Positions 19,878 to 33,869 of a DNA stretch of 64,000 bases are shown piece by piece. Numbering within the stretch: position 1 is the first letter of the stretch; each line of letters begins with the position of its first letter. The DNA is taken from NCBI RefSeq assembly GCF_026000375.1, contig NZ_AP026708.1, positions 1,366,501 through 1,430,500 of the forward strand. The letters run 5' to 3'. Both the position numbers and the translations under genes were made by a program. Origin of the DNA: Pseudodesulfovibrio portus (lineage in GTDB: Bacteria; Desulfobacterota; Desulfovibrionia; Desulfovibrionales; Desulfovibrionaceae). The notes under the pieces are model-generated. The model saw only the letters and a list, made by a program, of their open reading frames with translations. It made no database searches and was not told the origin of the DNA.

Positions 19878-20000
19878 AGGCTGCCGAGAAATGGTCAGCT
19901 GCTAGGCGCAAAAAAAAAGGCAAGGCCGACGCGTATATGCAATACGCGAGGGTTTGCCTTTTTTGCAGCAACGACGCAGATGGCCGTTTGTCGGCAGCCT
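19878..20000. repeat. long palindromic repeat, family A (lon copy)
   Basis: A 123-nt imperfect palindrome. Outer arms AGGCTGCCGA... and ...TCGGCAGCCT pair, the middle has CTGCTAGGCGC/GCAGCAACGACGC, and the core GCAAAAAAAAAGGCAA...TTTGCCTTTTTTGC holds an inner CGCGTAT/ATACGCG stem. Family A copies also lie at 29552, 29685, 31981, 32174, 33534, 36684 and 52579. Confidence 0.75.
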
Positions 20001-31607: not shown

Positions 31608-31639
31608 TTCTTTTCCCGACCACAATTAGGAGGAATTAT

Positions 31640-31984
31640 ATGTTTGAAGTAACCGAAGCCGCCCAGAAACAGCTGGAAGGCTATTTTTCCGATAAAGAAG
31701 CGTCCCCCATCCGCGTGTACCTCGCGGCCGGTGGCTGAGCAGGCCCTCGCCTGACCCTGGCTCTGGATGAGCCTAACGATAAAGACGTCACTTACGAAGC
31801 TTCCGGTTTCACCTTCGTCGTAGACAAGGAACTCGAAGCCCAGACCGGCAATATCAAGATCGACATGACCTACTACGGGTTCGTGGTCGACTCCGAGAAT
31901 CCCGTTGGCGGCAGCAGCGGCGGCAGCTGCGACTGCTCCTCTGCGGGTTCCTGCGGTTCCGCCGGATCCGGCGGCTGCGGCTGC
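31640..31984 (+). CDS. IscA/HesB-like selenoprotein (in-frame TGA = Sec33)
   Basis: A 114-residue A-type Fe-S-carrier-like protein that ordinary gene finding would miss, because codon 33 is TGA (31736-31738). Reading on in frame gives VYLAAGG-Sec-AGPRLTLALDEP, aligning residue for residue with VHLADGG-Cys-AGPRLSLALDEP of the paralogue at 33199. Both copies share the whole fold and a Gly/Ser/Cys tail ending GSGGCGC. In IscA/HesB proteins this position is the first cluster-ligating Cys. AGGAGG lies six bases before the ATG, and codon use after the TGA is fully coding-like. A hairpin fitting a bacterial SECIS follows. HesB-like selenoproteins are known from bacterial selenoproteome surveys; the function is unproven. 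Confidence 0.88.
31759..31773 (+). promoter_or_regulatory. candidate bacterial SECIS element
   Basis: GGCTC-TGGAT-GAGCC: a five-base-pair GC-rich stem with a five-base loop that has G at its second position. The loop begins 25 bases after the UGA, inside the 16-37 range described for bacterial SECIS elements. In the Cys paralogue the same place reads GGCCC-TTGAC-GAGCC, which breaks one pair and loses the loop G. Confidence 0.7.
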
Positions 31985-32102
31985 TAGGGCGATAAGCCGC
32001 CATCTGCGGCGTTGCTGCAAAAAGGCCAGACCCTTGCGTATTGAGATACGCGGCGGTCCTGGTCTTTTTTTGCGCCTTGCAGCTGACGACTTCTCGCCCT
32101 AG
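31981..32102. repeat. palindromic repeat family A with built-in terminator
   Basis: From CTAGGGCGA, which contains the TAG stop of the selenoprotein gene, to TCGCCCTAG. The centre GGCCAGACC...GCGTAT-TGAG-ATACGC...GGTCCTGGTCTTTTTTT forms a stem with a T-run and probably terminates the gene. A nearly identical element follows the Cys paralogue. Confidence 0.8.
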
Positions 32103-32173
32103 CTGCGTCCCTCCGTCCTGGGGGATGATCGGTGGCGGGGAGAAGAGGTTCATGTGTTTGGCGCGGTCGGTGG

Positions 32174-32250
32174 CCACAGACCCTTGCGTATTAGGATACG
32201 CGGCGGTCCTGTTTTTTTGCGCCTTGCAGGTGACGGCTTCTCGCCCAAGC
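32174..32250. repeat. truncated family A repeat
   Basis: Carries ACAGACCCTTGCGTATTAGG through GGTCCTGTTTTTTTGCGCC and CTTCTCGCCCAAG, that is the core and right arm of the element at 31981, without the left arm. From here to the Met-rich gene at 32371 I see only a short leader. Confidence 0.7.
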
Positions 32251-32370
32251 CGGTTCCATCCGTTCTGGAGAATGGGTGGCCGGGCACTGTGCCGATGTTC
32301 AGATTATAATATGAATGAAGAGTCCGCGCGGTAGGATTGAAGCCATTCACAACAGCACATGGGAGGTACC

Positions 32371-32961
32371 ATGAAAAGGAATGCAATCATTCTGGCGTTG
32401 GTCGCAGCCATCGCACTTTGCGTTGCAGGGCTTGCAATGGCTCAATCCGGAAGCATGCCCGGTCCCGGCAGCGGCATGGGATATGGCGGCATGGGGTCCG
32501 GCGGCGGCAAAGGCTACGGCGGCATGTGGAGAGGCTACCAGGCCACGCCGGGGCAGCAGGAGGCGTTCAGGAAGATCACGGAGAAATACCAGCCGCAGTT
32601 CATCAAGCTGGCGGACAAGCTGTGGGCCAAACGGGCCCAACTCAACGGTGCCCTGGCCCAGGAAAAAATCGACCGGCAGCAGGCCAAGGCCTTTGCCAAG
32701 GAAGCCGGCGATCTCCTGGCCCAGTCCTATGAGCTGCAAGTGGAAATGCTCGCCGACATGCGCGAGCAGGGGTTGTCCTACTTCGGCATGGGCATGATGC
32801 ACGGCGGCATGATGGGCGGCGGCATGATGGACATGATGCATGGAGGCATGATGGGCGGCATGATGAATATGATGATGGGCGGCGGCCAGCGGTATTACGG
32901 AGACGGTCAGCCCGGCCCCGGCGGCTATGGAAACATGCCGGGACCAGGCATGATGCAATAG
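32371..32961 (+). CDS. secreted Met-rich Spy/ZraP-like metal-binding protein
   Basis: A 196-residue exported protein. A signal peptide (1-24, ending AMAQ) is followed by a Gly/Met linker, a helical Spy/CpxP/ZraP-like segment (about 58-135: TPGQQEAFRKITEKYQPQFIKLADKLWAKRAQLNGAL...) and a C-terminal tract at 140-169 that is almost wholly Met, His and Gly, such as GMMHGGMMGGGMMDMMHGG. Met/His-rich tails of this kind bind copper or silver. GGGAGG precedes the ATG at 32371. It lies between the two HesB-like genes on the same strand, which hints at a shared metal or redox theme. Confidence 0.8.
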   Translation: MKRNAIILALVAAIALCVAGLAMAQSGSMPGPGSGMGYGGMGSGGGKGYGGMWRGYQATPGQQEAFRKITEKYQPQFIKLADKLWAKRAQLNGALAQEKIDRQQAKAFAKEAGDLLAQSYELQVEMLADMREQGLSYFGMGMMHGGMMGGGMMDMMHGGMMGGMMNMMMGGGQRYYGDGQPGPGGYGNMPGPGMMQ

Positions 32962-33198: not shown

Positions 33199-33537
33199 AT
33201 GATCAATGTATCCGAATCCGCCCAGCAGGAGCTGACCAAATATTTCGCAGACAAGGAAGTGCAGCCCATCCGGGTGCACCTGGCCGACGGCGGCTGCGCA
33301 GGCCCCCGCCTGTCCCTGGCCCTTGACGAGCCGCGCGACGGCGACAAGTCCGTTGAACAGGGTGCCTTCACCTTCCTTATCAACGAGGAACTGGCTACCG
33401 CCTCCGGCGCGGTCTCCATCGACATGTCCGAGTACGGCTTTGTCGTGAATTCCGAGAACCAGATCGGTGGCGGCGGCTGCGGTTGCGCCTCCTCGGGTTC
33501 CTGTGGTTCCGCCGGCTCCGGCGGCTGCGGCTGCTAG
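33199..33537 (+). CDS. IscA/HesB-like protein, Cys form
   Basis: A 112-residue A-type Fe-S-carrier-like protein, paralogue of the UGA-containing gene at 31640. The conserved Cys33 in DGGCAGPRL is the first of the IscA-type ligands, and the usual C-terminal CGC motif is expanded to a Gly/Ser tail with five Cys (GGCGCASSGSCGSAGSGGCGC, split here by the family pattern of GC pairs). Central parts ALDEPRDGDKSVEQGAFTFLINEEL and SIDMSEYGFVV match the partner. AGGAG precedes the ATG. A family A repeat begins at its stop codon, as in the partner. Confidence 0.9.
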   Translation: MINVSESAQQELTKYFADKEVQPIRVHLADGGCAGPRLSLALDEPRDGDKSVEQGAFTFLINEELATASGAVSIDMSEYGFVVNSENQIGGGGCGCASSGSCGSAGSGGCGC

Positions 33538-33710
33538 GTTGCGATAAGCGGCGATCTGCTGCGTTAAGTGAATTGTTCGCGAGCAACGCGAGCGTTACAA
33601 GATCTTACACCTCAGGCGTGCTGCAAAAAGCCCAGACCCTTGTGTATTGAGATACGCGGCGGTCCTGGGCTTTTTTTGCGCCTTGCAGCTCACCACTTCT
33701 CGCAACCTAG
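33534..33710. repeat. palindromic repeat family A with 54-nt insertion
   Basis: CTAGGTTGCGA, containing the TAG stop, to TCGCAACCTAG. The core GCCCAGACC...GGTCCTGGGCTTTTTTT again forms a terminator. Compared with the copy at 31981 the left arm carries about 54 extra bases (33566-33619). Confidence 0.75.
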
Positions 33711-33869
33711 CCGCGTTCCTCCGTCCTGGGGGACGGTCGGTGGCGGGAACTGGGAAATGCTGAATTCATTGCGATAGGCTGCGGATTATGCGTGGGGCGA
33801 AGTACACCGACATTACTCAGGTTCCCCAGCCCGGCGTCCGAAGAACCCAAAAAAATAAACGCGAGCGAT

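Follow-up and report, generated by a model that had tools for sequence, protein, structure and literature searches.

A HesB/IscA-like selenoprotein gene and its neighbouring cysteine paralogue in Pseudodesulfovibrio portus

Genes and features of the locus

The window analysed here is a stretch of 64,000 nucleotides of Pseudodesulfovibrio portus DNA, positions 1366501-1430500 of the genome's one contig (3,403,863 bases). It carries two tandem genes of the HesB/IscA type, one with an in-frame TGA (the Sec copy) and one with a cysteine codon at that place (the Cys copy). The nearest loci among the named ones belong to Pseudodesulfovibrio and to other Desulfovibrionaceae metagenome-assembled genomes. 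The following features were located, with positions counted from the first letter of the window:

31628..31633, + strand: Shine-Dalgarno sequence AGGAGG of the Sec copy, read from the sequence, with a 6-nt spacer to the ATG at 31640
31640..31987, + strand: HesB/IscA-like selenoprotein gene, 115 codons (NF038090, PF01521, predicted A-type fold)
31736..31738, + strand: in-frame TGA, codon 33, almost certainly read as selenocysteine (Sec), aligned with the GGCSG cysteine of HI1723 (2APN)
31759..31773, + strand: predicted core hairpin of a bacterial SECIS element, GGCTC-TGGAT-GAGCC, beginning 20 nt after the TGA and with its loop 25 nt after it
31928..31984, + strand: cysteine-rich tail (CDC, C, CGC), with C97 and C99 as candidate remaining cluster ligands from alignment
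32371..32961 (from the second ATG), + strand: Met-rich ZraP/CpxP-like ORF (PF13801, Metal_resist), between the two copies
33199..33537 (stop included), + strand: cysteine paralogue, 112 aa, TGC at 33295-33297, no SECIS hairpin
31987-32140, 32177-32284 and 33615-33747, + strand, and 19885-19993, - strand: copies of a dispersed repeat, about 110-150 bp, 83-91% alike

The frame of the Sec copy contains a single TGA between 31640 and its last sense base at 31984, and is closed by a TAG at 31985-31987. An earlier, sequence-only reading of this DNA had put the TAG at 31984, which is off by one; the ribosome site that it described ahead of the gene is present. The same reading had pointed to a TGC in the tandem paralogue at the codon aligned with the TGA, and this is indeed what lies at 33295-33297. 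The two proteins are 63% identical, and the homology flanks the TGA on both sides (LAAGGUAGPRL in the Sec copy and LADGGCAGPRL in the Cys copy).

Both copies exceed the cut-off of 85 bits of the NCBIfam model NF038090 (IscA_HesB_Se), the Sec copy with 115.5 and the Cys copy with 109.1 bits, and no defining feature of that family was found to be missing. Both also pass PF01521 (Fe-S_biosyn), for which the Sec copy scores 32.6 bits against a cut-off of 26.3. Of 149 Desulfovibrionaceae genomes, 139 have a match to NF038090, which passes the cut-off in 136; of 247 genomes sampled from the phylum, a few of them from the same family, 133 have one, which passes it in 101. A copy with TGA exceeds the cut-off in 118 of the 149 Desulfovibrionaceae genomes, or 119 if one more at 84.5 bits (G068) is included. 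Since both copies in the window score over the cut-off and the TGA recurs so widely, we conclude from sequence comparison that the interrupted frame is not a chance product.

The HesB-like selenoprotein as such is not new, and the window gene is an additional member of a family already covered by NF038090 and by papers of 2006-2007 that list such proteins in Desulfovibrio. Table 3 of PMC1794560 lists HesB-like selenoproteins for D. vulgaris and D. desulfuricans, PMC1914089 names DVU_1382 as one, and the family is also listed in reviews of 2022 and 2026. According to these published listings, the Desulfovibrio proteins share with the window gene the HesB family and the in-frame TGA. The UxGP motif of the window Sec copy, which every one of 154 distinct full-length Sec proteins carries, is as given in Table 1 of PMC13188914. 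The earlier remark that HesB-like selenoproteins are known from surveys was true but understated.

SECIS hairpin and decoding of the UGA

How would a UGA within the frame be read as a sense codon? The bacterial SECIS consensus, as set out in PMC13188914, has G in the first two loop positions, 16-37 nt from the UGA. The window hairpin fits this consensus, with a UGGAU loop 25 nt after the UGA (UGGAY across Sec sequences). The rationale for taking it as a SECIS element is based on a comparative test, since the single-sequence folding signals of the region are only weak (z -1.87 and -0.42). Codons 8-11 after the TGA, which encode Ala-Leu-Asp-Glu, read GCT CTG GAY GAG in 87 of 87 distinct Desulfovibrionaceae Sec sequences, and Cys copies spell the same residues also with GCC, GCG, CTT, CTC, GAC and GAA. 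These 87 are all but one of 88 distinct Sec rows, L101 being omitted as one residue shorter near the TGA. All of them form the five core stem pairs, as against a mean of 3.1 and a maximum of 9 of 87 when synonymous codons were redrawn 200 times with the codon usage of the Cys copies.

The same holds across the phylum. In a set enlarged by further Desulfovibrionaceae members and 50 loci from other families, all five core pairs were found in 142 of 143 distinct Sec sequences versus 2 of 93 Cys sequences. Copies in which no Cys motif was recognised, 18 of the 174 tree rows, belong to neither class, here or in the Desulfovibrionaceae comparison, and the 93 lack L156, L157 and L162, three copies from outside the Desulfovibrionaceae whose motif GGCSGA was missed by the pattern. 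Compensatory changes are seen at pair 1 (A-T and T-A for G-C), pair 3 (T-A for C-G) and pair 4 (C-G for T-A). The sole Sec sequence without five pairs, L195, could pair in a shifted register when read by eye. In L152 (G011) and L197 (G222) the stem still pairs, with Gly replacing the usual Glu, and here RNA structure seems to override protein sequence.

The selenocysteine machinery for which the sequence-only reading had asked to search is present in the genome of the window: SelA, SelB and SelD each score over their family's cut-off, as does the tRNA-Sec (83.6 bits). The SelD gene (G000:C1:2044643-2045572, L018) itself has an in-frame TGA. From the conservation of the hairpin together with this machinery, the UGA at codon 33 is almost certainly read as selenocysteine, and the proposal of a HesB/IscA-like selenoprotein with one TGA at codon 33 is borne out by the family match, the SECIS element and the machinery.

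Co-occurrence was examined across the 149 Desulfovibrionaceae genomes, 124 of which have a selA match. Tallies were made by hand, with G068 counted as TGA-positive at its 84.5 bits and G095, whose selA match is itself partial and under the cut-off, counted as selA-positive. Of 62 genomes without a TGA row among the matches listed, 57 were searched again and the other 5 had no match; five selA-negative genomes were identified by elimination. Among genomes at least 90% complete, a TGA copy occurs in 105 of 111 with selA versus 1 of 10 without, and that lone genome, G124, is an assembly of 820 contigs. Among the 25 genomes in which selA had no match, a TGA copy is present in seven, whose assemblies are all 67-93% complete, and in 11 every copy over the cut-off is TGA-free. 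In six of the 111 selA-positive genomes of at least 90% completeness (G001, G026, G042, G063, G095 and G101) no copy over the cut-off carries a TGA, which shows that a genome can lose or exchange its Sec copy and still keep selA.

These data bear on the alternative that the Sec copy is a broken gene, its TGA being a genuine stop or an error of sequencing. Translation table 11 takes TGA as a stop, and an intact tandem copy is at hand. However, a broken gene would hardly recur with its TGA, over the cut-off, in 118 of the 149 Desulfovibrionaceae, nor, in other families, would one TGA be found in most of the matches listed; the synonymous constraint and covariation of the SECIS element and the full Sec machinery of the genome likewise argue against it. 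This explanation is extremely improbable.

The cysteine copy and its origins

Is the Cys copy peculiar to the window? Of 93 Sec loci (the window, 86 genomes and 6 further loci whose species may also be among the 86), 72 are accompanied on the same strand by a second copy no more than 3 kb away, and in 63 this copy has Cys at the Sec position. The 82 neighbour copies lie upstream in 22 cases and downstream in 60, and Sec/Cys pairs are spread over 17 of the 27 genus codes encountered. The remaining 21 loci, including eight of genus code g7 and three of g13, have no neighbour copy, 6 of them with less than 3 kb of sequence on one side. A neighbour without Cys at the Sec position is found in nine genomes, eight of g38 plus G128. 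Carrying a Cys partner is a trait of the lineage; its recurrence beside the Sec copy is the less ordinary part of the finding, the selenoprotein itself being expected there. The entries for the Desulfovibrio HesB-like selenoproteins in PMC1794560 and PMC1914089 make no mention of a cysteine partner, and no description of a tandem Sec/Cys HesB pair was found in the literature searched, though one may be in print elsewhere.

An alternation of TGA and TGC at this codon among homologues had been suggested. Both codons do occur, but the alternation is not free, since the Sec copy keeps its TGA and a near-invariant SECIS element. The Cys form turns up in separate duplicates, in selA-free genomes and in a small number of genomes that have selA but no TGA copy.

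Some extra copies carry neither residue. Seven loci of g25 (L038, L040, L041, L043, L046, L050 and L082) have a third copy without the ligand cysteine, and in eight of g38 (L079-L081 and L108-L112) an extra copy has lost it. Their motifs resemble LSFxxxSGPRL and VSPRGSxGPHL, and our guess is that these copies are DsrR-like.

A further question is whether Sec and Cys copies separated once or many times. When the Sec/Cys residue was masked and a protein tree built, 19 changes of the Sec label were required, of which supported branches force at least 13. Forcing all Sec rows of a 48-row subset into one clade comes at a cost of 193 log units (p-AU 0.0002), and a single ancient Sec/Cys split was rejected on this ground. 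The subset comprises 24 loci chosen after the full tree was seen and its bootstrap is not fully settled; both trees draw on 93-94 columns only, so that details of branching are unsure. Rejection of one ancient split leaves several origins or several homogenisations, and the trees suggest that Cys copies arose by duplication of the Sec gene, or were homogenised with it, several times.

Identities were compared in ten multi-locus genus sets, with pairs chosen by genus. In the N-terminal (67.7 vs 65.6%), middle (64.1 vs 57.8%) and tail regions (69.0 vs 60.3%), Sec and Cys copies from one genome are closer to each other than are Sec copies taken from different sets. The SECIS region reverses this order (66.1 vs 72.6%). 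No clear sign of recent gene conversion was seen, in that Sec-Cys identity within and between genomes differs by at most 4 points across four gene regions in the ten sets. Repeated duplication with a Sec-to-Cys change and an old homogenisation that spared the SECIS element both fit these observations. The two Cys copies that retain all five SECIS pairs are as expected if Cys genes descend from Sec genes, although two could also be a matter of chance; Figure 4 of PMC1794560 describes a HesB-like gene of the Cys form that still has a remnant of a SECIS. According to PMC1794560, Sec-to-Cys changes are seldom seen and largely confined to two other families; repeated Sec-to-Cys duplications, if real, would go against this published trend. 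The recurring pair offers a natural experiment on Sec versus Cys in the same genome, fold and position, in which the Sec copy is seldom lost where selA is present.

Fold, ligands and a possible carrier role

The Sec copy is predicted to have the A-type (IscA/HesB) fold. An AlphaFold2 model built from a 14-row alignment has a mean pLDDT of 75.2, with values below 50 in the tail, and a Foldseek search with this model returned ten matches at E <= 0.001 (3e-6 to 2.4e-4), including IscA with a [2Fe-2S] cluster (1x0g, E 3e-6), E. coli IscA, SufA, HI1723, AQ_1857 and DsrR. phmmer places U33 on the cysteine of the GGCSG motif in H. influenzae HI1723 and A. aeolicus AQ_1857, and it aligns the tail cysteines with the C-terminal cysteines of these two proteins. 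Sec33 would thus sit at the first cluster-ligand position of the fold, in agreement with the initial suggestion that Sec replaces a cluster-ligating Cys. By alignment, the window Sec copy carries candidate residues for the three ligands, a GGCxG Cys plus a C-terminal CxC, with Sec for the first Cys.

Canonical IscA, SufA and ErpA are alike in fold and first-ligand position. In other respects the Sec copy differs from them: it has Sec for Cys, its tail is rich in Gly, Ser and Cys, and its scores stay under the equivalog cut-offs (25.9 of 117 bits for ErpA, 22.6 of 136.2 for SufA and 22.2 of 150.6 for IscA), as do those of the Cys copy. Both copies also fall under the cut-offs of TIGR00049 and of TIGR01911 (HesB_rel_seleno), the latter with similarity of 32.1 and 38.7 bits against 66.35. 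The CxC of the tail is often absent, being found in 66 of 154 distinct Sec proteins; at least three tail cysteines are present in 153 of 154.

What else could serve as an A-type carrier in this organism? A TIGR00049 search of the window's genome returned the two copies and one match at chance level (E 0.34), and neither TIGR00049 nor NF038090 revealed an A-type-family protein besides the pair. This absence rests on those two models, since PF01521, run against the same genome, had no hit at E <= 0.001 and so missed even the two copies. The genome also has three NifU_N matches and one SufBD-core protein. Given these scaffolds and no other A-type match, the simplest reading is that the pair would take on the carrier step and that Sec would act as the first ligand.

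Our main reading, to which we assign a probability of about 0.78, is that the window carries the gene for a HesB-like selenoprotein (NF038090) with the fold of A-type carriers, in which Sec33 would serve as a cluster or iron ligand, the Cys copy being its selenium-free version. SelB, bound to the hairpin 20 nt past the UGA, would deliver Sec-tRNA to codon 33, the place of the first of the three cluster-binding cysteines in canonical IscA, SufA and ErpA. Sec33 and the tail cysteines would then bind an Fe-S cluster or iron, which the protein may pass from NifU/Suf-type scaffolds to apo-enzymes of a presumably anaerobic sulfate reducer. The neighbouring Cys version could do the same job without selenium, as a backup for times of low selenium; such copies would have been made or homogenised several times as the adjacent Sec copy stayed Sec. 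Should the A-type role hold, selenium would be a ligand or near-cluster residue in the general Fe-S delivery of a large bacterial group, and the making of Fe-S proteins there would be coupled to the supply of selenium.

We tentatively hypothesize further, at somewhat less than even odds, that the general A-type carrier of the Desulfovibrionaceae is a selenoprotein, that a Cys sister has repeatedly been born from it, and that the Sec copy is rarely given up while selA is kept; the status of the pair as sole A-type carrier was tested in the window's genome alone. Fe-S delivery in these sulfate reducers would then depend on selenium supply, with a selenium-free backup that has repeatedly been rebuilt.

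Several observations sit poorly with a plain carrier, namely the patchy CxC, the equivalog scores, the low pLDDT of the model tail and a gene context that does not lead to Fe-S assembly, and the literature searched held no cluster binding or other biochemical evidence for any NF038090-type member. The protein could be a genuine A-type-fold selenoprotein with another task, a redox, metal- or selenium-binding protein or a DsrR-like regulator that uses Sec33 and the tail differently. The unconserved CxC speaks for this, as do the GP that follows Sec where HI1723 and AQ_1857 have GF, the presence among the ten best fold matches of DsrR, an A-type fold without cluster cysteines, and the extra copies without Cys at the Sec position in some genera. 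However, the first ligand and tail cysteines of the window copy can be aligned with those of HI1723 and AQ_1857, and the genome offers no other A-type-family protein; we regard a non-carrier role as unlikely. An equally unlikely view concerns the Cys copy, which might be a partner, in a mixed Sec/Cys dimer or with different targets, rather than a selenium-independent backup. Its frequent placement beside the Sec copy is in keeping with a partnership, and the nine genomes whose neighbour lacks Cys are a poor fit to a simple backup, but the 21 Sec loci without a neighbour copy, the g7 and g13 loci among them, speak against it. A third proposal would join the pair and the Met-rich protein into a metal-handling module, on the grounds that all three genes lie within 1.9 kb in the window and the Met-rich ORF matches Pfam Metal_resist. 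This is very improbable: with the Met-rich protein as query, tblastn matched nothing in 97 related loci, and copies of the dispersed repeat flank its ORF on both sides. The Met-rich protein is, given its absence from those loci, probably incidental and not part of the system. The sequence-only reading had named the pairing of the selenoprotein with a Cys copy and a Met-rich secreted protein as something it had not seen described; the Sec/Cys half of that remark stands within the literature searched, and the Met-rich half is not supported.

The dispersed repeat follows each HesB copy and recurs elsewhere in the window, with matches also in L115, L061, L117, L057, L098 and L062. Gene context gave no pointer to Fe-S assembly among the 68 loci compared, in which genes were named by eye: pyrR lies upstream in 56, a divergent TetR-like gene occurs in 24, and liv, ilv or hypAB lie downstream according to genus. 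In 11 loci (L063-L070, L085, L099 and L100) the Sec copy is followed at about 1-4 kb by hypA/hypB-like genes, also identified by eye, and in 9 of these 11 a regulator-like gene lies beyond them.
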